Assembly: GCA_016196415.1 (NCBI GenBank)
Contig: JACPXS010000036.1
Span: 1 to 20,640, forward strand
Origin: Candidatus Omnitrophota bacterium
Lineage (GTDB): Bacteria > Omnitrophota > Koll11 > Aquiviventales > Aquiviventaceae
Reading direction: 5' to 3'
DNA: 20,640 nucleotides
The position numbers were made by a program, and so were the translations under genes. Positions 9,439 through 20,640 of this stretch are shown piece after piece; the stretch's first letter is position 1, and every line of letters starts with the position of its first letter. The notes under the pieces are model-generated. The model did not search any database and was not told the DNA's origin. It saw only the letters and a list, made by a program, of their open reading frames with translations.

Positions 9439-9525
9439 GGGTGCGTCAGGGGGAATGCGTCATGCGGACGGGGAGGGGTTTCACATTCCGCATCCCACAT
9501 GACGCATTCCACGGCCACGCGCGTG
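9439..9525. repeat. Inverted pair of 7-base-period arrays, mlaF-mlaD
   Basis: Two arrays face each other about position 9481. The perfect arms are 9452-9464 and 9498-9510 (GGAATGCGTCATG and its complement). Read in 7-base steps, the right half shows units starting at 9484, 9491, 9498 and 9505 that all begin with CAT and centre on CATTCCG. The left half shows units at 9439, 9446, 9453 and 9460 on the complementary pattern. CATTCCG is the same heptamer as the array at 20098-20118. Confidence 0.75.
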
Positions 9526-9535
9526 GGGAGCGGTG

Positions 9536-10312
9536 ATGGCGCAGCGGTGGACGTTAGAGATTAAAGTCGGAGCGTTTATCGTCTCGGGCCTCGCCTTGCT
9601 CGTCATTTTTATCTTTGCGATCGGCGATCTCTCCACGACGTTCCAGCCCGGCTATCGGCTTCGGGTGGTGTTTGACTCCGCCAACGGGATTACCGATGGC
9701 TCCCCGGTCCAATATGCCGGGGTGGAGGTCGGGAAGGTGCAAGAGATCAAGATCGTCTACTCCAAACAAGAAGGGCCCAAGGTGCAGCTGAGTATTCGGC
9801 TGCCCTCAAGCGTGATGGTGCGGGCCGATGATGAGGCCTCGATCAGCACCTTTGGCCTGTTAGGAGAGAAATACCTTGAGATCAGCCCCGGCCCGGGGCA
9901 GGGCCCCATGTTGGAACCGGACGGGCAGCTCGTCGGCAAGCCGCCGGTCTCCACCGAACGCATCATCGAACGCTCCAACGAAGTCCTCAATGAGTTTAAG
10001 CAAACCCTCCAAGGCCTCAATAGCCTCGTCGGGGATCCGGAGGCGCGCATTTACCTCAAGGAGGCGGTGCAGGAGGCCCGAGACGCGACGCGACACTGGA
10101 AGGCGCTTGGCGAGCGGCTCAATGTGGCGATGATGTACACCGAGTCGGGACAAGGGAGCTTGGGCAAAATCTTGTTTGACGACGAGCTCTATCAGCGCAT
10201 GGTGTCATTCGTCGATGACCTCCGGGCCCACCCCTGGAAACTCCTGGTGAAACCGAAGGATCAGAAGTCAGATGTCAGCCGTCAGAAGTCGGGTGAGAGC
10301 GGGCCACGGTGA
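9536..10312 (+). CDS. mlaD: MlaD-type MCE-domain phospholipid transport protein
   Basis: This is the substrate-binding MCE subunit. It is anchored in the inner membrane and forms a ring in the periplasm that conducts lipid between membranes. It has 258 residues: one membrane helix (11-29), the MCE domain (about 38-118, containing FDSANGITDGSPVQYAGVEV), then a helical tail of about 120 residues. The ATG at 9536 is preferred over GTG 9533 because GGGGAG (9525-9530) sits five bases upstream. The last dozen or so codons (from 10261) lie in a 7-base repeat, so the residues KSDVSRQKSG are repeat-derived and probably not functional. It follows mlaE-mlaF and completes the minimal transporter core. 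Confidence 0.9.
   Translation: MAQRWTLEIKVGAFIVSGLALLVIFIFAIGDLSTTFQPGYRLRVVFDSANGITDGSPVQYAGVEVGKVQEIKIVYSKQEGPKVQLSIRLPSSVMVRADDEASISTFGLLGEKYLEISPGPGQGPMLEPDGQLVGKPPVSTERIIERSNEVLNEFKQTLQGLNSLVGDPEARIYLKEAVQEARDATRHWKALGERLNVAMMYTESGQGSLGKILFDDELYQRMVSFVDDLRAHPWKLLVKPKDQKSDVSRQKSGESGPR
10261..10288. repeat. Heptamer array at the 3' end of mlaD
   Basis: Four consecutive 7-base units start at 10261, 10268, 10275 and 10282, with consensus TCAGAAG. The first and last are exact; the second and third differ at two positions each. The array lies inside the mlaD reading frame just before its stop codon. Confidence 0.8.
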
Positions 10313-10469
10313 GGGAAGCGCGCCAGCCGGTTGGTGGTTGCGGATCCTGCGACTGACCTCTCCCGCGACCCCTCGACGCCCACACTGAGTTCCCCGGGCA
10401 TGCTCGGGGGCATCGACTTCCCGGCTGCGGGGTTCTGCCCGCGGTCCCCTGAGCGCATCAGCCACGCGC
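10313..10469. other. mlaD-radA spacer
   Basis: This 157-base gap has no gene. A near-palindrome of 18 bases, CCCCGGGCATGCTCGGGG, lies at 10392-10409 with one mismatched pair. No promoter or terminator is convincing, and radA has no evident ribosome site. Confidence 0.35.
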
Positions 10470-11831
10470 ATGCCGAAACTGACAACCCTTTATTGCTGTC
10501 AACAGTGCGGCCATCAGTCCATTAAATGGGGCGGCCGCTGCCCTGGCTGCGGGCTCTGGAATACCCTGGTCGAAGAGATCATCGAACGAAGCCCAGCGAC
10601 GCCGACTGCATCGAGGGAATCGGCCAAGCCGACCCTGCTCTCCGAGGTGTCGCTGGAAGACGCAGGACGGGTGCGAACCGGCTTAGGAGAATTTGATCGG
10701 GTGTTGGGGGGCGGGATCGTGCCCGCGTCCATCACGCTGGTCGGCGGAGAGCCCGGAATCGGGAAATCAACCCTACTGCTGAGTGTGGCCGGCTCGTTAG
10801 CGGCGGCGCATCAGACCGTGCTCTACGTCAGCGGCGAGGAGTCGCTGCGCCAGACCAAGTTGCGCGCCACCCGCCTTGGGCTCAGCGCCGCCCCGATCCA
10901 TTTGGCGTCGCAGACGCGCCTGGAAGCCGTCATCGAAATGATTCGGCAGCTCTCGCCTCAGGCGGTCATCATTGATTCCATCCAGGTGATGGAGATGGAT
11001 GCGCTGAATTCCGCGCCGGGCTCCATCGGACAGGTGCGCGCGTGCGCCCACGAACTGGTGCGCCTGGTGAAGGCCAGTCGCAGGGCGGCGCTGTTTTTGG
11101 TCGGGCATGTCACGAAGGAAGGATTTCTCGCTGGGCCAAAGGTCTTGGAGCATCTGGTCGACACCGTCCTCTACTTCGAGGGTGAGCCGACGAGTGGCTT
11201 TCGCGTCTTGCGCTCCACGAAGAACCGGTTCGGCGCGACCTATGAGCTCGGGGTGTTCCACATGACCGCCGAAGGGTTGGTCGAAGTCGCCAACCCCTCG
11301 GAGCTTTTCCTGAGCGATCGCGCGGAGGCTGTACCGGGATGCATGGTGACGGTCAGCGTGGAAGGCAGCCGGCCGTTGCTGGTCGAGGTGCAGGCGCTGA
11401 CGAGTCCCTGTGGGATGGGGCTGCCGCGCCGCCGAACCACCGGCGTCGACTTCAACCGGCTCTCCATGCTGCTGGCGGTGTTGGAGCGGCGCGTGGGACT
11501 CCATCAGCTGACGCAGCAAGATGTCTTTGTGTCTTCCCTCGGCGGCGTGCGGTTGTTGGAACCGGCCGCTGATTTGGGGATTGCCGTGGCGATTGCCTCG
11601 AGCGTGAAGGAGCGGCCCACCCAGCGAAAAGACTTCGCCATTGGCGAGGTCGGGCTCACCGGGGAAGTTCGCCCCGTGACGAACGTCTCACAACGGATCC
11701 ATGAAGCGAAGCGCGTGGGGTTCCAGCGGTGTTTTGTCGCGGCGTCGCGAGGAGGCGTGAACGCTGTCGAGGGCATTGAGATCGTACCGGTCCGGCACGT
11801 CAGAGAGGCGATCGCTCAGGCGCTTGAGTAA
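10470..11831 (+). CDS. radA: RadA/Sms DNA repair ATPase
   Basis: RadA is a RecA-like, DnaB-like motor that helps branch migration and processing of recombination intermediates. It has 453 residues, normal for the family. A zinc finger uses C10, C13, C24 and C27. The RecA-like domain has Walker A GEPGIGKS (93-100), Walker B VIIDS (166-170) and the RadA hallmark KNRFG (251-255). The C-terminal Lon-like domain (about 290-453) includes the PRRRTTGVDFNR segment (residues around 320-331). In Bacillota radA lies directly downstream of the clpC operon; here three mla genes are in between. The next gene, a YacL-type protein, is also a classic radA neighbour. Confidence 0.96.
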   Translation: MPKLTTLYCCQQCGHQSIKWGGRCPGCGLWNTLVEEIIERSPATPTASRESAKPTLLSEVSLEDAGRVRTGLGEFDRVLGGGIVPASITLVGGEPGIGKSTLLLSVAGSLAAAHQTVLYVSGEESLRQTKLRATRLGLSAAPIHLASQTRLEAVIEMIRQLSPQAVIIDSIQVMEMDALNSAPGSIGQVRACAHELVRLVKASRRAALFLVGHVTKEGFLAGPKVLEHLVDTVLYFEGEPTSGFRVLRSTKNRFGATYELGVFHMTAEGLVEVANPSELFLSDRAEAVPGCMVTVSVEGSRPLLVEVQALTSPCGMGLPRRRTTGVDFNRLSMLLAVLERRVGLHQLTQQDVFVSSLGGVRLLEPAADLGIAVAIASSVKERPTQRKDFAIGEVGLTGEVRPVTNVSQRIHEAKRVGFQRCFVAASRGGVNAVEGIEIVPVRHVREAIAQALE

Positions 11832-11858
11832 TCCCGCGAGCGCGTAGGAGAAACCATC

Positions 11859-12872
11859 ATGGACCTCCGATTTGTCCGAGTCGGGTTCCTCGTCATTAGC
11901 GCGCTGCTGGGTTCCCAGGTCATCGGCCCGGCAGCCGATTGGCCGTTTTGGCTCCGCACCCTCTTGGGAGCGGGGGCGGGCGCCCTCTTAGTGATCCTCG
12001 AGGCCGTCATCCATCGAATCGGCCGGGTGTCTGTTCGGGGATTCTCGGCCGCGGTCTTCGGGCTACTGTTTGGTTTGATCATGGCGAAGCTGGTTTCGGA
12101 TGCGATTGCGCTCATCCCCCTTGATCCCGGGACGGTGGCGATTATCCGCGTGTCGCTCACCTGGGCGTTCTGCTATTTGGGGATGACGATGGCGCTGCGG
12201 GGTCGTGATGAATTCAGCGTCATCATTCCGTACGTCCGCCTCTCCCGGCATGATCGCGGAGAAGAGGCCTACTTGGTGGATACGAGCTCGATCATCGACG
12301 GCCGGTTGCTCGATCTGTGCAAGACGCGGTTTGTCGAGGGCCGGCTGGTCGTCCCGCGCTTTGTCCTGAAGGAACTCCAGGCGGTCGCTGACAGCGCCGA
12401 TCCCATCAAACGAGGCCGGGGGAGGCGAGGCCTGGAAGTCCTCAACCAATTGCGGCAACTCACCACCATTGATGTGCGAATCCACGAGGAAGATCTGCCG
12501 GGGATTGCCGAGACCGATGCCAAACTGGTCAAGCTCGCCCAAATGTTGGGGACCCGGGTCATCACCAACGACTACAACCTCAACAAGGTCGCGGAGCTCC
12601 AAGAGGTGAGCGTCTTGAACGTGAACGAGCTGGCTCAAGCGCTTCGGCCGATCGTCTTGCCTGGGGAGACGCTCGAGGTGAAGCCCATCAAGGAGGGCAA
12701 GGAACACCATCAAGCGGTCGCCTATCTTGAGGATGGGACAATGGTGGTTGTTGAAAACGGGCGCCCGCTCATTGGACAGACCATCAGGGGATTGGTGACC
12801 AGCGTCCTGCAAACCTCGGCGGGGCGGATGGTGTTCGTGCGAGCCGAAGGCGCGCCGCCCGTCAAACGCTAG
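11859..12872 (+). CDS. Membrane-anchored PIN/TRAM protein, YacL family
   Basis: The first 115 residues contain about four membrane helices (about 7-24, 32-52, 62-82 and 93-112). They are followed by a PIN nuclease-like domain (about 137-260) and a TRAM domain (about 265-330). Likely PIN metal-binding acids are D141 (VDTSSIIDGR), E172, D220 and D238 (TNDYN). The TRAM domain suggests RNA binding, so the protein is probably a membrane-tethered ribonuclease, although its substrate is not established. The family is known from B. subtilis YacL, encoded after radA and disA; here disA is missing. AGGAG at 11846-11850 is a good ribosome site. It has 337 residues, slightly shorter than YacL. Confidence 0.9.
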   Translation: MDLRFVRVGFLVISALLGSQVIGPAADWPFWLRTLLGAGAGALLVILEAVIHRIGRVSVRGFSAAVFGLLFGLIMAKLVSDAIALIPLDPGTVAIIRVSLTWAFCYLGMTMALRGRDEFSVIIPYVRLSRHDRGEEAYLVDTSSIIDGRLLDLCKTRFVEGRLVVPRFVLKELQAVADSADPIKRGRGRRGLEVLNQLRQLTTIDVRIHEEDLPGIAETDAKLVKLAQMLGTRVITNDYNLNKVAELQEVSVLNVNELAQALRPIVLPGETLEVKPIKEGKEHHQAVAYLEDGTMVVVENGRPLIGQTIRGLVTSVLQTSAGRMVFVRAEGAPPVKR

Positions 12873-12881
12873 TGGAGCCCC

Positions 12882-13059
12882 ATCCCTCGGCCTTTGGCCT
12901 TGGGATCCTGGCCGAGCGATCCCGAGCGAACGCGAAGGACGGGCGAAACAAGAAGTGCCACGGACTTCCCTCCACGCGGCTCGGGACCCTCTCGACCGAC
13001 GAAGGACCCTGAGCGTCCTTCGACGGGCTCAGGAGGCTCATCCTGAGGCCCTCGAAGGA
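12882..13059. repeat. Cluster of REP-like palindromes before ispD
   Basis: Three stems are visible. (1) 12882-12892 with 12896-12906, 11 bases, two mismatches, loop TTT. (2) 13000-13007 with 13015-13022, GAAGGAC type, perfect over 8 bases. (3) 13017-13034 with 13041-13058, 18 bases with two mismatches, loop GGCTCA. Stems 2 and 3 overlap and are mutually exclusive. The motif CCTTCGACGGGCTCAGGA resembles intergenic repeats I recall from many metagenomic genomes. The 258-base gap holds no gene. Confidence 0.75.
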
Positions 13060-13130
13060 TGAGCGGAGTCGAAGGGCTGCCCGTGAGGCTCCACACGGAT
13101 GGCTCCAACATCGTATGAGCGACGCGGCTG

Positions 13131-13913
13131 ATGATGAATGTGGCGGCGATTATTCCAGCGGCGGGATCAGGCAGGCGGATCGGCGGGACGATCAGCAAGC
13201 TGTTCCTTCCCCTCAATGGCCGACCGCTCCTGGCGCATACGCTGACGGCGTTGCAACGCAGCCCATCGATCCGCTGGATCGTGCTGGCGATCCGCGCCGT
13301 CGATCGAGCGCGCATGGAGGCCTTGCTTCACCGGTGGAAGATCACCAAAGCGCTGCCGCCGTGCCTTGGGGGTGGTTCACGAGCCGAGTCGGTGGCTCGA
13401 GGCGTTGCCATGGTCCCTCCGGCGGCGCGGTGGGTATTGGTCCATGACGGGGCGCGGCCGTGTGCCACGCAGGCCCTTATCGCGCGATCGGTTCGTGCGG
13501 CAAGACGCCATGGAGCGGTCGCGTGCGGATTGCCCGCGGCCCTGACCGTGAAAGCGGTGGATGAGCGACGCCACGTGCGGCTGACGCTGGACCGCGACCA
13601 GCTCTGGTTCGCGCAAACCCCCCAGGTGTTCCGGCGGGACTGGTTCGCGCAAGCGCTCGCCCGGGCCGGAGACCGACTAGCGCACTATCCGGATGACGCA
13701 GCCCTCGTCGAGGCCGCGGGGTTTCCGGTGGCGATGGTCGCGGGTGACCCGGCCAATCTCAAAGTCACGACGAAAGAGGATTTGTTGCTGGCGGAAGCGA
13801 TCCTTGCTTCTTGGGACCCCCGCCAAGTCAAAAGGCAAAAGGAAAAAAGCCACACCACAATTCAAAAGTCAAAAGCGAGTCGAGCGCTTCTTGTGGGAGC
13901 ATTTCAGTTTTAA
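13131..13913 (+). CDS. ispD: IspD, 4-diphosphocytidyl-methylerythritol synthase
   Basis: IspD transfers CMP from CTP to methylerythritol 4-phosphate in the MEP pathway to isoprenoids. Motifs: PAAGSGRR (9-16) with K23 for CTP binding, GGSRAESV (81-88), VHDGARP (104-110), and the C-terminal GDPANLKVTTKEDLLLAE (205-222). The catalytic core ends near residue 228. The remaining 30 or so residues (from about 13815) are encoded by an A-rich 7-base repeat and its loop, and look like an acquired tail rich in Lys, Gln and Ser; typical bacterial IspD proteins end near 230. ATG codons at 13131 and 13134 are both possible. ispF follows immediately, as in many bacteria, and some species fuse the two. Confidence 0.92.
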   Translation: MMNVAAIIPAAGSGRRIGGTISKLFLPLNGRPLLAHTLTALQRSPSIRWIVLAIRAVDRARMEALLHRWKITKALPPCLGGGSRAESVARGVAMVPPAARWVLVHDGARPCATQALIARSVRAARRHGAVACGLPAALTVKAVDERRHVRLTLDRDQLWFAQTPQVFRRDWFAQALARAGDRLAHYPDDAALVEAAGFPVAMVAGDPANLKVTTKEDLLLAEAILASWDPRQVKRQKEKSHTTIQKSKASRALLVGAFQF

Positions 13914-13952
13914 ATTTCCTTGTGGTGTTGCCTTGTTCGTTTTGAATTTTAC
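13827..13952. repeat. Inverted pair of A-rich heptamer arrays, ispD-ispF
   Basis: The left array is seven 7-base units from 13827 to 13875 (first unit GTCAAAA, last two both TCAAAAG). The right array is seven units from 13904 to 13952 on the opposite strand. They are symmetric about 13890 and separated by a 28-base loop. The best pairing is GCCACACCACAA (13849-13860) with 13920-13931, 11 of 12 bases. The ispD stop codon (13911-13913) lies inside the right array, and ispF starts 14 bases after it. Confidence 0.8.
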
Positions 13953-13965
13953 CTTCGGTGACGCG

Positions 13966-14373
13966 ATGCGGGTTGGGAGTGGATACGACGTCCATCGGTT
14001 CAAGGGACGCCACCCGTTGAAACTCGGCGGCGTGACGGTTCCCTCGGCGAGAGGGTTGGCCGGCCACTCGGATGCGGATGTGCTGCTCCACGCTGTGGCG
14101 GACGCCATCCTGGGCGCTGTCGGCGCGCCGGATTTGGGGGAGCAGTTCCCGCCGAGTGATCCGCGCTGGCGCGGCGCGGACAGCCGGGTGTTTGTGCGGC
14201 GCGCGCTCTTGCTGGCGCGGCGCAAGGGCTGGACAGTCGGGAATGTGGACGCGACCGTCGTCGCCGATGCGCCGAAGCTGGCCGGCCACAAGGCGCGGAT
14301 GTCGCAGGCGATTAGCAAGCTGCTGGATGTGGAGCCGGAGCGCGTGTCGGTCAAGGCGAGCGTCAAGCGATGA
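13966..14373 (+). CDS. ispF: IspF, MECDP synthase, C-terminally truncated
   Basis: IspF cyclises CDP-methylerythritol 2-phosphate to MECDP in the MEP pathway. The first 127 residues match well: GSGYDVHRF (metal-binding D and H), [20 protein letters not shown] (metal-binding His in GHSDAD), [11 protein letters not shown] and the PKLAGH region. The protein then ends as VSVKASVKR at 135 residues. Family members continue here with a block of the form K-A-T-T-T-E-x-L-G-F-T-G-R and end near 157-160. About 25 residues, including the Thr and Glu that bind the cytidine diphosphate, are missing. The frame closes at the TGA overlapping the cysE start (ATGA at 14370). The enzyme may be inactive, or the shortening may reflect a sequence error or misassembly. 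ATG 13966 is chosen because family proteins begin with MR-(I/V)-G. Confidence 0.85.
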
Positions 14374-15065
14374 ACTGGCTGGCGGTCGTCCTCGTCCTGC
14401 TCGGGCTGGCGCTGCTCATCCGCGCCGCCTTCGCCGCGGAGATCAAGGCGTGCTTCGAGCGCGACCCGGCGGCCCGCAATCTCCCCGAAGTCCTGCTGAC
14501 CTATTCCGGGCTGCACGCGCTCATCGTCTACCGGGTGGCCCACGTGCTCGACCGGCTGGGTCTGCCCATCCTGCCGCGGCTCCTCATGACGGCGGCGCGG
14601 TGGCTCACCGGCATCGAGATCCATCCCTCGGCGGCGATCGGCCGCGGCCTCTTCATCGACCATGGCATGGGGGTGGTGATCGGCGAGACCGCCGTCATCG
14701 GCGACAACGTAACCATCTTCCAGGGCGTGACGCTCGGCGGCACCGGCAAGGAGCGGGGCAAGCGCCACCCGACGATCGGCAACCACGTCGTCATCGGCAC
14801 CGGCGCGAAGGTGCTGGGCAATATTACCGTCGGCAACCACTCGATGATCGGGGCCAACGCCGTCGTCGTCCGCGACGTGCCCGAATACTCCACCGTCGTC
14901 GGCGTGCCCGGCCGGATCGCGCGGACGAAGGACCGCCACTTCCAGGGTATCAACCTCGACCACACCCACCTGCCGGACCCACTGGCCGAGCGCCTCGAGA
15001 CGCTCCAGCACGAGATCGATGCGCTCGAACGGCATCTCAAAGAGCACCGCAAGTCGCAGTCCTGA
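14370..15065 (+). CDS. cysE: Serine O-acetyltransferase with N-terminal membrane helix
   Basis: CysE acetylates serine with acetyl-CoA to give O-acetylserine, the precursor of cysteine. It has 231 residues. The core shows the DPAARN and [14 protein letters not shown] segments, then left-handed beta-helix hexapeptides: [18 protein letters not shown] (about 81-98), [23 protein letters not shown] (about 102-124) and GKRHPTIG (130-137). The expected catalytic H and D of the IDHG motif are present. Unusually, residues 3-20 form a hydrophobic helix before the core, suggesting membrane attachment. A short helical tail (about 205-231) follows. It overlaps ispF by four bases. In Bacillota gltX would lie between ispF and cysE. 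The upstream genes are cut short at this junction, so cysE may mark a recombination boundary. Confidence 0.9.
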
Positions 15066-15067
15066 TG

Positions 15068-15122
15068 GGGTCAGACCCCAATCGTGAAACGTGCCAACTT
15101 CTGAGCCTGGGGTCTGACCCCC
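15068..15122. repeat. Paired GGGGTC-GACCCC inverted repeats before cysS
   Basis: GGGGTCAGACCCC at 15068-15080 and its exact complement at 15110-15122 face each other across 29 bases. Each copy is also nearly palindromic itself. The pair starts three bases after the cysE stop and ends one base before the cysS ATG, leaving no room for a ribosome site. Similar GGGGTC-GACCCC motifs are, from memory, frequent next to IS200/REP-type transposases in environmental genomes. Confidence 0.85.
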
Positions 15123-15123
15123 G

Positions 15124-16668
15124 ATGAGCCTGCGCCTCTACAATACCCTCAGCCGAACCCTCGAAGCGTTCGTGCCGCTCGACCCCGAAGGCTCGAAGGT
15201 GGGCATCTACGTCTGCGGCCCGACGGTCTACGACGACCCGCACATCGGCCACGCGCGCAGCGCGTACCTCTTCGACGTCCTGCGCCGCTACCTGAAGCAC
15301 AGGGGCTATGATGTGACGTTCGTCCGGAACGTGACGGACGTGGACGACAAGATTATCGAGAAGGCGAGGCAAGAATTCGTGGCGTGGGACGCGGGGCGCG
15401 GAGCGGAGGATCTGAAGGCCAAGTGTCGGGAAGTGGCAGACCGCTACCTCAAGAGCTACCACGAGGCGCTTGGCCGGCTTGGCATTGCCGCCCCTGACAT
15501 TGAGCCAAAAGCGACGGAACACGTCATCCCCGATTCACAGAACGTTGAAACCACGAAGCAGATCGACGCCTCCATGACGGGCTTCATCGGCCAACTGATG
15601 ACGAAGAACATGGCGTATCAAGCCGGAGGGGACGTCTATTTCCCGGTGCGCAAGTTTGCAGAGTACGGGACATTGTCGAATCGCTCGCTCGACGAGTTAC
15701 AGGCTGGAGCGCGAGTCGAGCCGGAAGAGCAGAAAGAAGACCCGCTTGATTTTGCGCTCTGGAAGGCCGCGAAGCCCGATGAGCCTTCGTGGAACAGCCC
15801 CTGGGGACCTGGACGGCCTGGGTGGCATATTGAATGTTCCGTGATGAGCATAGCCTATCTGGGCGACGCGTTTGATATTCATGGTGGGGGTGTCGATCTT
15901 GTCTTTCCCCACCACGAAAATGAAGTCGCCCAGGCGCGCGCACTGGGCAAGCCGTTCGCGAAATATTGGATGCACAACGGCCTGCTCACCGTGAAGGGCG
16001 AGAAGATGTCGAAGTCGCTCGGGAATTTTGTGACCATTGAGCAAGCGCTCAGAAAAGCTGGCAACGCAGATGTCCTGAAAGTTTTTTTCCTTGGCACTCA
16101 TTATCGAAAACCAATTGACTATGCTGAGGCCAATGTTGAGATGGCAGAGAAGCGCTTTAGCGGGCTCTGGCACTTCCTGGGGCAAGCCAAAAACTGCCAC
16201 TTAGCTCTTGCTGGAAGCCGGGCCATCCCAGAGCAAGTCGCGCGGCTTCGGGAAAGATTTGTCCAGGTGATGGACGATGATCTGAATACTCCGGGTGCCT
16301 TAGCAGTGCTCGATAAGCTTGTTGAGCTCGGTCACCGGTGGATTGAGTCATGGCGAGAACGGAAGTCGCAGTGGCAACAAGCCCATCCCGGAGAACTCCT
16401 CGATCCAGGCGATGACCCCAATCTCGACGCGCTGCAAGGTCACATTGATGCTTGTGCGGCGGCAGTCGAAGAGCTTGGAGCGGTATTAGGGGTAACGTTT
16501 CGGATGGGTGAGGTCAGCGATGAGGCAAACGTACTCTTCGAGGAGTATAAAGCGGCAAGAGCACGCAAAGATTTTCAGACTTCTGATCAGAAACGACGGC
16601 TGTTGCAAGAAAAAGGATTTACGATCCAAGACACGTCAACCGGTTCCATCATGCTTCCCAAGCGATGA
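15124..16668 (+). CDS. cysS: Cysteinyl-tRNA synthetase
   Basis: This is a class I aminoacyl-tRNA synthetase that charges tRNA-Cys. It has 514 residues against about 460 in E. coli. The HIGH motif is at 40-43 and KMSKS at 294-298. Zinc ligands that bind the cysteine thiol correspond to C31, C238, H263 and E267. The C-terminal helical domain ends with the DFQTSDQKRRLLQEKGF block seen in the family. Extra length lies around residues 130-165 and 410-440. Base composition shifts within the gene: 15181-15240 has 41 G or C in 60, but 15541-15600 has 33 and 16081-16140 only 24. The 5' fifth resembles cysE and the rest does not. It pairs with cysE, as in many genomes, linking cysteine synthesis and use. 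Confidence 0.96.
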   Translation: MSLRLYNTLSRTLEAFVPLDPEGSKVGIYVCGPTVYDDPHIGHARSAYLFDVLRRYLKHRGYDVTFVRNVTDVDDKIIEKARQEFVAWDAGRGAEDLKAKCREVADRYLKSYHEALGRLGIAAPDIEPKATEHVIPDSQNVETTKQIDASMTGFIGQLMTKNMAYQAGGDVYFPVRKFAEYGTLSNRSLDELQAGARVEPEEQKEDPLDFALWKAAKPDEPSWNSPWGPGRPGWHIECSVMSIAYLGDAFDIHGGGVDLVFPHHENEVAQARALGKPFAKYWMHNGLLTVKGEKMSKSLGNFVTIEQALRKAGNADVLKVFFLGTHYRKPIDYAEANVEMAEKRFSGLWHFLGQAKNCHLALAGSRAIPEQVARLRERFVQVMDDDLNTPGALAVLDKLVELGHRWIESWRERKSQWQQAHPGELLDPGDDPNLDALQGHIDACAAAVEELGAVLGVTFRMGEVSDEANVLFEEYKAARARKDFQTSDQKRRLLQEKGFTIQDTSTGSIMLPKR

Positions 16669-16732
16669 CGCCCGGCCCACAACGCCTCTGGGGTAGTGCG
16701 TCCCTCGCACCGCGTCATACTTCTTGCGGTCC

Positions 16733-16774
16733 GATGTCTCGGATCTCATGTCTCAGGTCTGATGTCTGATGTCT
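16733..16774. repeat. Heptamer array containing the tmk start codon
   Basis: Six 7-base units start at 16733, 16740, 16747, 16754, 16761 and 16768. The consensus is GATGTCT, exact in units 1, 5 and 6, and all six end in TCT. The tmk ATG (16769) is inside the last unit. Because the period is not a multiple of three, ATG codons in neighbouring units fall in different frames; the only other in-frame one (16748) meets a stop four codons later. Confidence 0.85.
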
Positions 16775-17437
16775 CCCCGCCGCGGCTGCTTCATTACCCT
16801 CGAGGGTCCCGAAGGCTCGGGCAAATCCAGCCAGGCGCGCGCGCTGGTGCGGCTGCTCGCGCGAGTCGGTCGCCGGGTGACGTTCGTGCGCGATCCGGGC
16901 TCGACCGCGCTAGGTCGACAGCTACGGCGCGTACTGTTGCATAGCCACGCCGCGCTCTCGCCCCTGGCGGAGGCCCTCCTGTTTATCGGGGGCCGGGTCC
17001 AGCTGGTGGAGGAGCGCATCCGTCCGGCCCTGGTCGGCGACCGGGTGGTGGTCTGCGACCGGTTCCATGACTCCACGGTGGCCTATCAAGGCTTCGGCGG
17101 GGGGCTGAACGTCACATGGCTGGAACGGGTGGGGCAGCGGGCCATTGGTGGGATCATGCCGGACCTGACGATTCTGCTCGATCTGCCGACGGCGCGTGGC
17201 TTCGCGCGGCTGGGCCGCTCACGCGACCGGATGGAGCGCAAGACGAGGGAATTCCATCGGAGAGTCCGGCAAGGCTTCCTCCGATTGGCGAAACGCGAGC
17301 CAAAACGGTTCGTGGTCATCAATGCCGACCGGCCGAGTCAGATGGTCCAGCGGGACGTGGAGCGGGCGGTGCTGCGGCTGATGACCGCAACACACTGTTC
17401 ACTCGCCACTCGCCACTCGCCACTCGCCACTCGCTAA
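16769..17437 (+). CDS. tmk: Thymidylate kinase
   Basis: Thymidylate kinase phosphorylates dTMP to dTDP for DNA synthesis. It has 222 residues. Motifs: P-loop GPEGSGKSS (13-21), RDPGST (41-46) in place of the usual REPGGT, DRFHDSTVAYQG (97-108), and a LID segment DRMERKTREFHRRVRQGF (153-170). The last dozen or more residues are a 7-residue repeat (two copies of HSPLATR after SLATR) encoded by a 7-base array, and are probably not part of the fold. The start at 16769 lies in another 7-base array and has no clear ribosome site, but the conserved core begins right after it. It is followed by holB with a TAATG overlap; tmk-holB is a widely conserved pair. Confidence 0.92.
   Translation: MSPRRGCFITLEGPEGSGKSSQARALVRLLARVGRRVTFVRDPGSTALGRQLRRVLLHSHAALSPLAEALLFIGGRVQLVEERIRPALVGDRVVVCDRFHDSTVAYQGFGGGLNVTWLERVGQRAIGGIMPDLTILLDLPTARGFARLGRSRDRMERKTREFHRRVRQGFLRLAKREPKRFVVINADRPSQMVQRDVERAVLRLMTATHCSLATRHSPLATR
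17394..17435. repeat. Heptamer array encoding the Tmk C-terminal tail
   Basis: Six units of 7 bases start at 17394, 17401, 17408, 17415, 17422 and 17429. Units 2-5 are exact ACTCGCC and unit 6 is ACTCGCT. Three units make 21 bases, so the protein repeats every seven residues (HSPLATR). The T of unit 6 is the first base of the tmk stop codon. Confidence 0.95.
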
Positions 17438-18417
17438 TGGGCTGGGACGACCTGCTCGGACACGAAAGCGCCAAACGGCTCCTGCGCGCACACGCGGAGT
17501 CAGGCCGGATGGCCGGCGCCTACCTCCTCGTCGGCCCCGAGGGTGTGGGCAAGCGTCGATTGGCCCGCGAGATGGCCAAGGCGCTCAATTGCACCGCACA
17601 AGGGCCGAGGCCCTGCGATGCCTGTGCGGTCTGTCGCCAGATTGATCGAAACAGCCATCCCGATGTGCACGGCCTAGCGCCTGGCGGGGCTTCCGATCAG
17701 ATCAAGATCGATGACGTCCGGGGACTGCTTGGTCGCATCGCCCTTCACCCATTCAGCGCCGCCACTCAGGTGGTGATCATCGATGGAGCAGAGCGGTTGA
17801 CTGAAGAAGCCGCCAACGCGCTCTTGAAAACCCTGGAGGAGCCGAACCCCCATACGCGATTTCTGTTGACGAGCGCGCATGTGGCGGATTGCTTGCCGAC
17901 GATTCGGTCCCGCTGCCAGCTCATTCGGTGTGACGCGCTGCCCGCCGATGCCATCGCGCGCATCGTGATAGGCGAGCGGGGCTGCGAGCCGCAGGTTGCG
18001 GAGTCGGTGGCGCGTATCGCCGGCGGCAGCGCCTCCGGCGCGCTCGCGCTGGCCGCGCGATGGACTCGCCACCAGCAGATCGCCGCCCAATTGGCAGACG
18101 ACGCGCCTTCGGCATGGGCCGCCCATCCGCTGCCTGAGACGCGCGAGGAGGTCGCCGAGTTCTTGGACGATCTCATGCAATGGCTGCGGGATCTCGCGGT
18201 GGTGGATGCGGATCCGGCGCATTTGGTGTACGCGGAGCACGCCGAGCGACTCCGCCGCCAGGCCCGCGCGTTCGATCGGGACCGGTGTATCGAGACGGCG
18301 CTTGAGTTGGTGGCGCTCCGCGATTCGCTGGAGCAGTTTGTCAGCCCGAGGTTGGTGGCCGCGCTGGCACGAGAGAAATGGCTGGAACTTCTGAAGGGTG
18401 GAGGGGTGGACCAGTGA
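17437..18417 (+). CDS. holB: DNA polymerase III delta-prime subunit
   Basis: HolB is the delta-prime subunit of the clamp loader that opens the sliding clamp for DNA polymerase III. It has 326 residues, as expected. Features: GHESAKRLLRAH near the N-terminus, P-loop GPEGVGKR (33-40, no Ser or Thr after the Lys, as is often the case in delta-prime), a zinc module with C52, C60, C63 and C66, VVIIDGAERL (112-121) and the SRC motif (158-160), which carries the trans-acting arginine. The C-terminal collar domain follows from about 200. The ATG at 17437 overlaps the tmk stop (TAATG), which implies translational coupling. The final codons (GGGVDQ) fall in a G-rich repeat arm. DnaX is excluded by the length and degenerate P-loop. 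Confidence 0.93.
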   Translation: MGWDDLLGHESAKRLLRAHAESGRMAGAYLLVGPEGVGKRRLAREMAKALNCTAQGPRPCDACAVCRQIDRNSHPDVHGLAPGGASDQIKIDDVRGLLGRIALHPFSAATQVVIIDGAERLTEEAANALLKTLEEPNPHTRFLLTSAHVADCLPTIRSRCQLIRCDALPADAIARIVIGERGCEPQVAESVARIAGGSASGALALAARWTRHQQIAAQLADDAPSAWAAHPLPETREEVAEFLDDLMQWLRDLAVVDADPAHLVYAEHAERLRRQARAFDRDRCIETALELVALRDSLEQFVSPRLVAALAREKWLELLKGGGVDQ

Positions 18418-18453
18418 TGCAGTTAGACCCCTGCACCCTCGACCCTCCACCGA
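18397..18453. repeat. Inverted heptamer repeats at holB-metG junction
   Basis: The right half has four 7-base units at 18426, 18433, 18440 and 18447, with the common core ACCCT. The left half, at the end of holB, is the G-rich complement. GGTGGAGGG at 18397-18405 pairs perfectly with 18443-18451. The holB stop and a TGATG overlap at 18415-18419 lie in the loop. Confidence 0.7.
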
Positions 18454-18455
18454 GC

Positions 18456-20060
18456 ATGATGTCTAAAATTGTCTATTTGACCACGCCGCTCTACTACGTG
18501 AATGCGGCGCCGCACATCGGCCATTCCTACACCACCATCGCGGCCGACTGCCTGGCGCGCTACTACCGCGTGAAGGGGCGGGAGGTGTTCTTGCTGACGG
18601 GCACCGACGAGCATGGCCAGAAAATCGAGCAGGCGGCTGCCGCGTCAGGCCAAGCCCCGCAGGTCTTTGTCGATCAGGTCGTGGAGCGCTTCGTGGCGCT
18701 GTGGAAGCTGCTGCACATCGCGTATGACGATTTTATTCGCACGACGCAAGCTCGGCACACCGCCGCGGTCCAGGCCATCCTCGCGCGGCTCTATGACGAG
18801 CACAAGCTGACCCGCGCGACCTATCAAGGCTGGTACTGCACGCCGGATGAGACATTTTGGACCGACGCGGAGCTGGCCCAATTGGTCCGCACCGGCCAAC
18901 GCCCCACGTGTCCCGCCTGCCAACGTCCGCTCGAGGCGGTGACCGAGGACGGCTGGCATCTGCCGTTGCGCGCGGCGCAGCCGTGGTTGAAGGCGTTTGT
19001 GAAGGCGCATCCCACTTTTGTCCAGCCAGCGAGCCGGTACAACGAGCTCGTCAGTCTGCTGGAACAGCCGTTGCCCGAGTCGCTGTGCATCACGCGCCCG
19101 CGGCGGCGCGTCAACTGGGGCATCCCCGTGCCGTTTAGTCACGAGCACGTCACCTACGTCTGGTTCGACGCGCTGCTCAACTACATCACCGTGCCCGGGT
19201 ATCTCGCCGATCCCGCGCGCTTTGCCCGGCTGTGGCCCGCCGACGTCCACTTCATCGGCAAGGACATTTTGCGCCATCACGCCGTCTACTGGCCGATCAT
19301 CCTGCACGCGCTGGGGTTCTCCGATGCGCAGATGCCGAAGGCGATCGTGGCGCACGGCTGGTGGAAGATCGGCGAGCAGAAAATGTCGAAATCGCTGGGG
19401 AACATCGTGGACCCCTCGGTGGTCATCGCGCAGGTGCTGAAGGGCCAGCCGTATGCGGCGGATAGCTATCGCTACTTTCTCTTGCGGGAAATCCCCTTCG
19501 GGCAAGACGGGAGCTTCTCCGAAGAGGCGCTGGTCACCCGGCTCAATGCCGATCTGGCGAATGATCTGGGCAACCTCGTGAACCGGGCCTGCTCCATGAT
19601 TGAGCGGTACTGCCGCGGGGCCGTCCCATCACTGGGTCCCGTCGGCTGCGCGGTCGAGGATGAGCCGCTTCAGCAGGCCGCGATCGCCCTCGCGGCGACG
19701 GTCGATCAGGCGATGAGCCGTTTGGAATTCTCCGCAGCCCTTGAAGCCATCATGGGCGTCGTGACGTGCGCCAACCGATACATTGAGCACGTGGCGCCTT
19801 GGCAGTTGGCCAAACACCCTGAAGACCGGCCCCGGTTAGAGATGACGCTCCATGTGGTCGCCGAGGTCCTTCGCATCGTCAGCATCGTGCTTGAGCCGTT
19901 CATGCCGGCTGTCGCGGAAGCGATGTGGCAGCAGCTCGGCTTGGGCCAGCAGCCCCGTCGTCTTCAAGACGCCGGCCAATGGCGCGGGATCGGCGCGGGA
20001 TCGACCATCGGGGCGCATCCGGTGTTGTTCCCTCGACTTGAATCCAGCACATCCCGGTGA
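18456..20060 (+). CDS. metG: Methionyl-tRNA synthetase
   Basis: This class I synthetase charges tRNA-Met and initiator tRNA. From the preferred start it has 534 residues, the short form without the C-terminal dimerisation domain. Numbering from the second Met (18459): SKIVYLTTPLYYVNAAPHIGHSY holds the HIGH motif at 19-22; KMSKS is at 308-312. A single zinc knuckle is suggested by C127, C151 and C154; the position expected to be the second Cys is D130 (YCTPDETF), which may weaken zinc binding. The start at 18456/18459 matches where the family begins. An upstream in-frame ATG at 18417 overlaps the holB stop (TGATG) and would add 13 residues encoded by the repeat; coupled translation from it is possible. 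The anticodon-binding helical domain occupies the last 170 residues or so. Confidence 0.95.
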   Translation: MMSKIVYLTTPLYYVNAAPHIGHSYTTIAADCLARYYRVKGREVFLLTGTDEHGQKIEQAAAASGQAPQVFVDQVVERFVALWKLLHIAYDDFIRTTQARHTAAVQAILARLYDEHKLTRATYQGWYCTPDETFWTDAELAQLVRTGQRPTCPACQRPLEAVTEDGWHLPLRAAQPWLKAFVKAHPTFVQPASRYNELVSLLEQPLPESLCITRPRRRVNWGIPVPFSHEHVTYVWFDALLNYITVPGYLADPARFARLWPADVHFIGKDILRHHAVYWPIILHALGFSDAQMPKAIVAHGWWKIGEQKMSKSLGNIVDPSVVIAQVLKGQPYAADSYRYFLLREIPFGQDGSFSEEALVTRLNADLANDLGNLVNRACSMIERYCRGAVPSLGPVGCAVEDEPLQQAAIALAATVDQAMSRLEFSAALEAIMGVVTCANRYIEHVAPWQLAKHPEDRPRLEMTLHVVAEVLRIVSIVLEPFMPAVAEAMWQQLGLGQQPRRLQDAGQWRGIGAGSTIGAHPVLFPRLESSTSR

Positions 20061-20088
20061 TTCGTATGCGTCTGACGAGACAGCTCCC

Positions 20089-20640
20089 TTGACGTTCCAT
20101 TCCGCATTCCGCATTCCCCTGGTCCGACGCCTATTGCGGGGACGGCTGCTCTACGTGGCGTTGGGGCTGTTGATGGCGATCCTCTATGCCCGCACGATCA
20201 CGTTCACACCCAGGCGGGTGTTCCAAGCGGAACCGGTTTCTGAGGCGGCTCAGACCGAATCGCTTGAGTGGTGGCCGACCGCACAAGAAACGGCGGTGTT
20301 CCAGCGCGCCATGGTCCAAAAACCCCATCTGGCGCTTGCCTTGTCCCTCGTAACGATCGGCATGGGAGGGCTGGCGGTCGTCGGATTGATCGGCTTCGGC
20401 TGGGCGCTTGCGACCGGTCGGCTCCGCACCATCTGGCACTTTTCCTCGCGCGGGGTCCCGCCATGGTCATTCGGCGAGTTCGGGCGGATCATGATCCTGA
20501 CGGTCGTTGTGGCCAGCCTCCTGCCGTTTGTGCGCATCGCGGCGCTCGCCTCATGGCTTGACGTGCACGACGCCAATCTGTGGATCACCACGTCGATGGT
20601 GACGCTAGATGTGTTTGTGATCCTCGCCATCCTCGCCTTC
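20089..20640 (+). CDS. N-terminal part of unrecognised membrane protein
   Basis: An open frame of 184 codons runs off the right edge without a stop. It has the strong hydrophobic pattern of an inner-membrane protein, with helices at about 21-36, 80-103, 128-145 and 165-184, and a charged loop (about 45-78) with two adjacent tryptophans. The start is uncertain: TTG at 20089 is the first in-frame candidate near the end of metG, while ATG 20173 would cut into the first helix. The first dozen codons overlap a CATTCCG repeat. A PPWSFGEF stretch near residue 122 faintly recalls the segment before the CPBP-type membrane protease domain, but the diagnostic motifs would lie beyond the window, so no function is assigned. 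Confidence 0.6.
   Translation, partial: MTFHSAFRIPLVRRLLRGRLLYVALGLLMAILYARTITFTPRRVFQAEPVSEAAQTESLEWWPTAQETAVFQRAMVQKPHLALALSLVTIGMGGLAVVGLIGFGWALATGRLRTIWHFSSRGVPPWSFGEFGRIMILTVVVASLLPFVRIAALASWLDVHDANLWITTSMVTLDVFVILAILAF
20098..20118. repeat. CATTCCG heptamer array after metG
   Basis: Three 7-base units, CATTCCG, CATTCCG and CATTCCC, start at 20098, 20105 and 20112. The same heptamer organises the mlaF-mlaD island about 10 kb upstream. The array overlaps the probable N-terminal codons of the last gene. Confidence 0.8.

Follow-up and report, generated by a model that had tools for sequence, protein, structure and literature searches.

Tandem repeats with a seven-base unit have been described in a few bacterial groups. 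Short tandemly repeated repetitive (STRR) sequences are known from cyanobacteria. The following systems are cited from the portions of the articles available to us. Three heptanucleotides in Calothrix are cited in PMC4692102, which also describes GGGAATC and GGGGA(C/T)T repeats as intergenic heptamers of Xanthomonas and Nostoc. For two Xanthomonas, 70 and 75 convergent inverted pairs were given there, and 83% are placed in the same gene context, varying in length and sequence. In Nostoc, the P6b stem within the trnL (UAA) intron consists of Class I (TDNGATT) or Class II (NNTGAGT) heptanucleotides (PMC4476775, PMC3488679), and one heptamer class has repeatedly replaced another (PMC4476775). The TAACTGA direct repeats of Beggiatoaceae are intergenic heptamers located mostly close upstream of start codons (PMC4679880), and elements of Geobacter metallireducens contain heptamers, either GGGACCG in four copies or MTYCTGA in five (PMC2700814). 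Here, seven islands with heptanucleotide periodicity are described in a contig of 20,640 nt from a Candidatus Omnitrophota bacterium (JACPXS010000036.1, in the following called the window) and compared with arrays in other phyla.

These islands are best read as hypervariable junction repeats of a multi-phylum class, which would be remodelled in seven-base steps and replaced by dispersed copies; we give this reading a probability of about 0.6. The terminal part of the window carries an operon-like run, mlaE-mlaF-mlaD-radA-PIN-ispD-ispF-cysE-cysS-tmk-holB-metG, identified from open reading frames (ORFs) and Pfam, the gene names being Pfam labels or, for the rest, assigned by us. Both the period and the junction location are visible in the window itself. 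When the entire window was scanned for periods (scoring +1 per match and -2 per mismatch, with a score of at least 9), five period-7 arrays were found, compared to 0.20 ± 0.40 expected from 50 second-order Markov sequences. All five are located at gene junctions, from position 10261 on. The remaining periods from 2 to 15 gave 0–2 arrays each, both period-14 rows being the same arrays as for period 7, and Tandem Repeats Finder was concordant with the scan. Chance is thereby rejected as origin for the window overall, but may account for the island at 18397–18453 taken by itself.

The original prediction had named seven islands of strict seven-base period, one at almost every gene junction from mlaF on and all at gene ends. 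Each was tested by its lag-7 identity and by the fraction of equal-length contig segments reaching that identity (in brackets); no strand is assigned to any of them. The array at 17394..17435 consists of five perfect ACTCGCC units running from the C-terminal codons of tmk up to the inferred holB start (0.89 (0.0003)), and 2.9 CATTCCG units at 20098..20118 lie close to where the ORF following metG begins (0.93 (0.001)). The final mlaD codons at 10261..10288 read TCAGAAG/TCAGATG/TCAGCCG/TCAGAAG (0.76 (0.002)), and a degenerate GATGTCT array at 16733..16774 reaches into the tmk start codon (0.71 (0.0013)), with lag 14 exceeding lag 7. The island at 13827..13952, which covers the ispD 3′ end and the ispD-ispF gap, is made of A-rich degenerate heptads with inverted arms (0.44 (0.008)). 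These five were found by both the scan and Tandem Repeats Finder. The degenerate heptads of the mlaF-mlaD gap at 9439..9525, containing the hairpin GGAATGCGTCATG .. CATGACGCATTCC, were missed by the scan (0.42 (0.019)), and a weak heptad/octad inverted pair, GGTGGAG .. CTCCACC, is located at the holB-metG junction at 18397..18453 (0.40 (0.047), lag 8 0.51). A strict period therefore holds for four of the seven islands, whereas those at 13827–13952 and 9439–9525 are degenerate and that at 18397–18453 fits lag 8 better. Counted from mlaF with the gene starts set here, islands are present at 7 of 11 junctions, and no array was found by the scan in the left 9.4 kb. Coding ends are overlapped by some islands, at mlaD (3′), tmk (start and 3′) and ispD (3′).

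Three islands had also been proposed to form inverted pairs. When RNA folds were each compared with 200 shuffles, positions 9440–9528 gave z -4.45 (0/200 shuffles as good), 13825–13955 z -1.82 (13/200) and 18388–18456 z -0.97 (36/200), so that the first pair is firm, the second possible and the third weak. Two further structures were noticed in the same gene run. The PIN-ispD gap (12895–13105) holds a CTTCGAC/GTCGAAG-type palindromic element, which we take to resemble a known dispersed palindrome, and the cysE-cysS gap (15060–15125) contains the inverted repeat GGGGTCAGACCCC .. GGGGTCTGACCCC.

Within Omnitrophota, the islands could be followed through protein tails. Of the 120 PIN relatives listed (self excluded, 80–87% identity), five are named 'Candidatus Omnitrophica', at 84–85%, and the named tmk and ispD relatives are likewise Omnitrophica. 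Translation of the tmk array gives HCSLATRHSPLATR; the tail reads HFSLATRHSPLITR in the nearest relative (79%) and SSSLVTRHSSLATR in another (71%). The tmk relatives P0122 and P0126 have a heptad tail at the same place as window 17394..17435, and many others of the 120, inspected by eye, show different seven-residue patterns or no tail. Tails resembling that of the window were also seen in several ispD relatives. Tails of at least 15 residues occur in 41/120 tmk and 71/120 ispD relatives, counts which are non-independent as the sequences are kin. Residue identity at lag 7 was 0.124 in tmk tails versus 0.078 in the bodies (other tail lags from 3 to 12: at most 0.098), and 0.152 versus 0.080 for ispD (at most 0.108). 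Heptad junction repeats may account for odd seven-residue tails of predicted proteins, and they can mislead the annotation of gene ends.

Similar arrays are present in other phyla. A RadA-linked set of 80 loci kept among the matches listed (1.37 Mb, many phyla; none with an Omnitrophota title) contained, at a score of at least 14, 15 arrays of period 7 in 11 loci, seven of period 14, six of period 8 and 0–3 of every other period between 4 and 15. An IMG/VR scan with the Omnitrophota PIN alignment gave a single distant locus (43% identity). Further genome stretches were scanned at score 12; these genomes had been chosen for pattern hits, and many stretches are centred on hits. Period 7 leads in most of the groups, with 18 and 13 arrays in two Chloroflexi genomes (period 8: 12 and 3), nine in an Acidobacteria genome, six in a Desulfobacteraceae genome, 27 in Gemmatimonadetes (period 8: 12) and 55 in ten cyanobacterial genomes (period 8: 6). 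Neither the 60 kb scanned from a Vicinamibacteria genome nor the 40 kb from Acidithiobacillus contained heptad arrays. Intergenic lag 7 is raised in six array-rich sets (z 2.3 to 5.3), compared to z 2.0 at most within genes. The arrays are located mainly between genes: according to a crude ORF caller, which called about 93% of the Gemmatimonadetes stretches coding, 12/76 elements lie within gene cores and 3/76 lack usable neighbours. Assembly artefacts are generally an improbable source of the arrays in these other genomes, since contigs over 4 Mb carry them. Octamer arrays were seen beside heptamers in the stretches of L316 (cyanobacterial) and G005 (Chloroflexi).

Joint change at orthologous sites was observed at a junction in the Gemmatimonadetes family of G003, where a hairpin is present in 11 of 20 loci, query included, and a spacer of 42–70 nt only in seven. 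The main unit is AATGCGG, ATTGCGG, AACGCGG or AGTGCGG depending on the species, with some loci mixed, and 8 of 24 stem pairs have changed on both sides. At the same junction, L171 and L179 carry an unrelated GC-rich hairpin without heptad period (by eye), as if kinds of hairpin replace each other. One unit pattern has 9 to 103 hits per genome in this family (arms and overlaps counted apart), the control giving 0 hits in 8/11 genomes and at most 14 in the remaining ones, and all four units occur in G050 and G075 among the matches listed. In G055, an 86-base hairpin query gave 91 matches, both strands of palindromes being counted. Twenty copies taken from the best matches share ATTGCGG arms; their loop has 16 nt in 16/20 and reads, in the main, CGA(A/C)GNNCGNNC(T/G)TCC. 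At a Chloroflexi junction, one species has the unit ATTAGGG and a relative, 81% identical, has AGTAGGG; no array is present there in four relatives of about 73% identity, and one further relative was not comparable.

Turnover between close genomes was observed in a cyanobacterial genus (12 genomes; best matches of 94–97% in one comparison and 89–97% in another). At one junction the hairpin core occurs in 3/12 genomes, with spacers of 228, 242 and 221 nt, differing by 14 and 7. Copy number varies at the neighbouring junction, where L302 has another unit family and lacks the core. A third junction (11/15 loci comparable) carries GTCAGGA-type, GGATTAG-type or GATGGGG arrays, and octamers in L316. 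Nine of 15 loci could be aligned, each versus L296, to count indels, which are therefore non-independent; among indels of at least 3 nt, 21/62 near arrays are multiples of 7, compared to 0/35 elsewhere. In L296, near position 2681, the core between inverted arrays closes with a terminator-like GC hairpin followed by TTTT.

Inverted pairing is likewise a feature of the arrays in other phyla. An inverted partner (score at least 14, within 300 nt) was found for 20 of 58 testable arrays; the reversed control gave 0, the complement-only control four and direct partners nine. In a wider set, 122/276 arrays were paired, 149 unpaired and five without flanks, at a looser threshold, with pattern-chosen sets included and no control tally. 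Among 75 non-identical hairpins with alike words, arm order is the same in 343 pairs and opposite in 11 (six of which involve one hairpin), and between groups the same in 70 and opposite in nine, the IMG/VR set being one group; in both counts the pairs are non-independent. The alignment of 51 distinct 5′ words reaches 3.52 bits, compared to 2.72 ± 0.14 (maximum 3.16) for letter-permuted words and, slightly exceeded, 3.32 ± 0.08 (maximum 3.50) for random-polarity words (60 trials each). Two candidate rules were rejected. The length of the hairpin is not universal, as G055 copies have a modal length of 78 (8/18 measured) and other groups range from 57 to 175, and a purine-rich 5′ arm is broken by AGCCATC and AGTCCCT. 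In the Acidobacteria contig L049 (4951–5596), two inverted AGATTTC arrays flank an entire pth-like gene, which was named by visual inspection of the first residues, and in L052 (9500–10000) about 500 bases of degenerate heptads with two inverted arms lie directly upstream of radA.

On the preferred reading, the repeats would consist of heptamers in tandem, frequently arranged as a pair of inverted arms with a short loop between them, and two routes of remodelling can be proposed. Whole heptads may be gained or lost inside an array by slippage or unequal exchange, or an entire array or hairpin may be swapped for another dispersed copy. By both routes, the seven-base register and the hairpin shape would persist while the letters turn over, and the arrays would be found at gene junctions since these tolerate insertions. 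We infer these molecular steps, and a like behaviour of the window islands, from the genomes compared. The differences among close genomes in copy number, unit family and indels support the original suggestion of an active process copying seven-base units; that the period and not the sequence is conserved is borne out at orthologous junctions of other phyla, and in Omnitrophota through protein tails only. Several observations weigh against this reading. The Omnitrophota comparison runs via proteins, the window being the only Omnitrophota DNA, and the intergenic autocorrelation proposed as a check gives the window a small lag-7 excess (z 1.6; lag 14 z 2.0). No lag-7 peak appears in the pooled intergenic DNA of the 80 loci (z 0.5) or in that of Acidithiobacillus (z -1.7). 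Period 8 forms a second array class, so that the register is not exclusive to seven, and the lag-8 signal (z 6.9) is stronger than that of lag 7 (z 5.3) in Chloroflexi G005. Near cyanobacterial arrays, 41/62 indels are not multiples of 7, and array 3 was comparable in just 2/15 loci. Stem pairing at the Gemmatimonadetes junction is kept just in the main, since several pairs are broken, and most copies there hold about five heptads in each arm, a constancy that is not predicted by free slippage. Finally, the reading does not account for why the unit is seven, nor for the mostly constant arm polarity.

Neutral replication slippage alone, with a polymerase property favoring seven-base steps and arrays that arise anywhere and survive only between genes, would fit the differences in copy number between close genomes, partly by whole heptads; over-representation of heptameric repeats and the idea of a polymerase contact have been published (PMC4692102, PMC4679880, both as available in part). 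It seems quite unlikely, because it predicts neither inverted arms, nor a coupled change in the two arms with the length almost fixed, nor the mostly constant polarity, nor dispersed copies with a similar loop. The mostly constant polarity would fit mobile palindromes like repetitive extragenic palindromes (REP) or miniature inverted-repeat transposable elements (MITE), with heptad arms and moved in trans by an arm-reading transposase. The dispersed G055 copies with loops in two orientations and the core in 3/12 genomes at one cyanobacterial junction also agree with this explanation, and dispersal was seen just in other genomes, the window having one firm hairpin. However, copies in one genome differ in unit, and no target duplication was seen by eye around 20 G055 copies (not computed), which makes such elements a rather unlikely account.

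The arrays may instead be functional intercistronic RNA hairpins acting in termination, attenuation or translation coupling. The two-sided stem changes, the Gemmatimonadetes hairpins and window 9440–9528, which fold strongly, and window islands adjoining start and stop codons all point this way, but in the window the folds of the four single arrays do not surpass those of shuffles, no Rfam family reaches the gathering score in four sources, window included, and a short spacer is all that seven of the 20 orthologous junctions contain. Co-directional, convergent and divergent gaps hold 43, 8 and 10 arrays against a background of 923, 264 and 260 (sums of five sets), which reveals no clear preference at these small numbers and with crude ORF calls. 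With the same reservation, a terminator-only or promoter-only role is unsupported by these counts, and the suggested selection on a seven-base pitch receives no direct support. An RNA function is thus very unlikely as the general explanation. A single process conserved across phyla, working in seven-base register, could also make and swap heptad hairpins at junctions and read a degenerate word of about RTSAGKA in the 5′ arm with preferred polarity, preserving the period, the arm order and, within some families, the hairpin size as the letters change; this idea is tentative and rather doubtful. Should the heptamer repeats be a single phenomenon with a register more lasting than its sequence, the reason for a unit of seven could be tested with strains, an enzyme and junction turnover.

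Hypervariable junction repeats, the reading preferred here, can be compared with the known systems. They resemble STRR sequences in being tandem degenerate heptamers with several units per genome, as are the window islands (four of seven strict), and differ in that the window host is an Omnitrophota bacterium and not a cyanobacterium. To our knowledge, STRR sequences have been described without hairpins or unit turnover at orthologous junctions, and the window class differs in this respect. The likeness to STRR sequences drawn in the original prediction holds, whereas a unit changing from site to site does not set the window apart, since cyanobacterial stretches do likewise. The Beggiatoaceae repeats are also intergenic heptamers near start codons, but they have a single fixed unit, and related heptamers are rare there as direct repeats (PMC4679880). 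Geobacter metallireducens has multi-copy tandem-heptamer elements and, in addition, an octamer class, but they occur within genes too and were interpreted as regulatory elements (PMC2700814). The Xanthomonas and Nostoc repeats have one G-rich unit studied as a quadruplex, with few inverted pairs in Nostoc, and the authors associated them with stable regions, in contrast to the turnover observed in this analysis (PMC4692102). A G run of three or more in each unit is not a property of the window units: none is found on either strand in TCAGAAG, TCTCATG/GATGTCT, CACTCGC, CATTCCG and AAGGCAA, the sole unit with one being the weak CCCTCCA at 18429–18451.

The Nostoc P6b stem shares a heptamer stem in which the unit class is swapped and the fold kept, as at the Gemmatimonadetes and cyanobacterial junctions, but it is one locus inside a group I intron, whereas ordinary gene junctions of several phyla are concerned here, and no Rfam family, group I intron included, exceeds its gathering score in the window. 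In the literature searched, as far as the articles were available, heptamer repeats were treated genus by genus, with a few units in each case, and no description of the breadth, the arm polarity or the shared degenerate word was found; a 2007 survey of simple repeats, the original STRR paper and several cyanobacterial genome papers lie outside its scope. The closest published behavior, in these partly available sources, is that of the Nostoc trnL P6b stem (PMC4476775) and the Xanthomonas repeats (PMC4692102), to which are added here the breadth over Omnitrophota and several phyla, the joint change at ordinary junctions between genes, and an arm polarity that is consistent for the most part.

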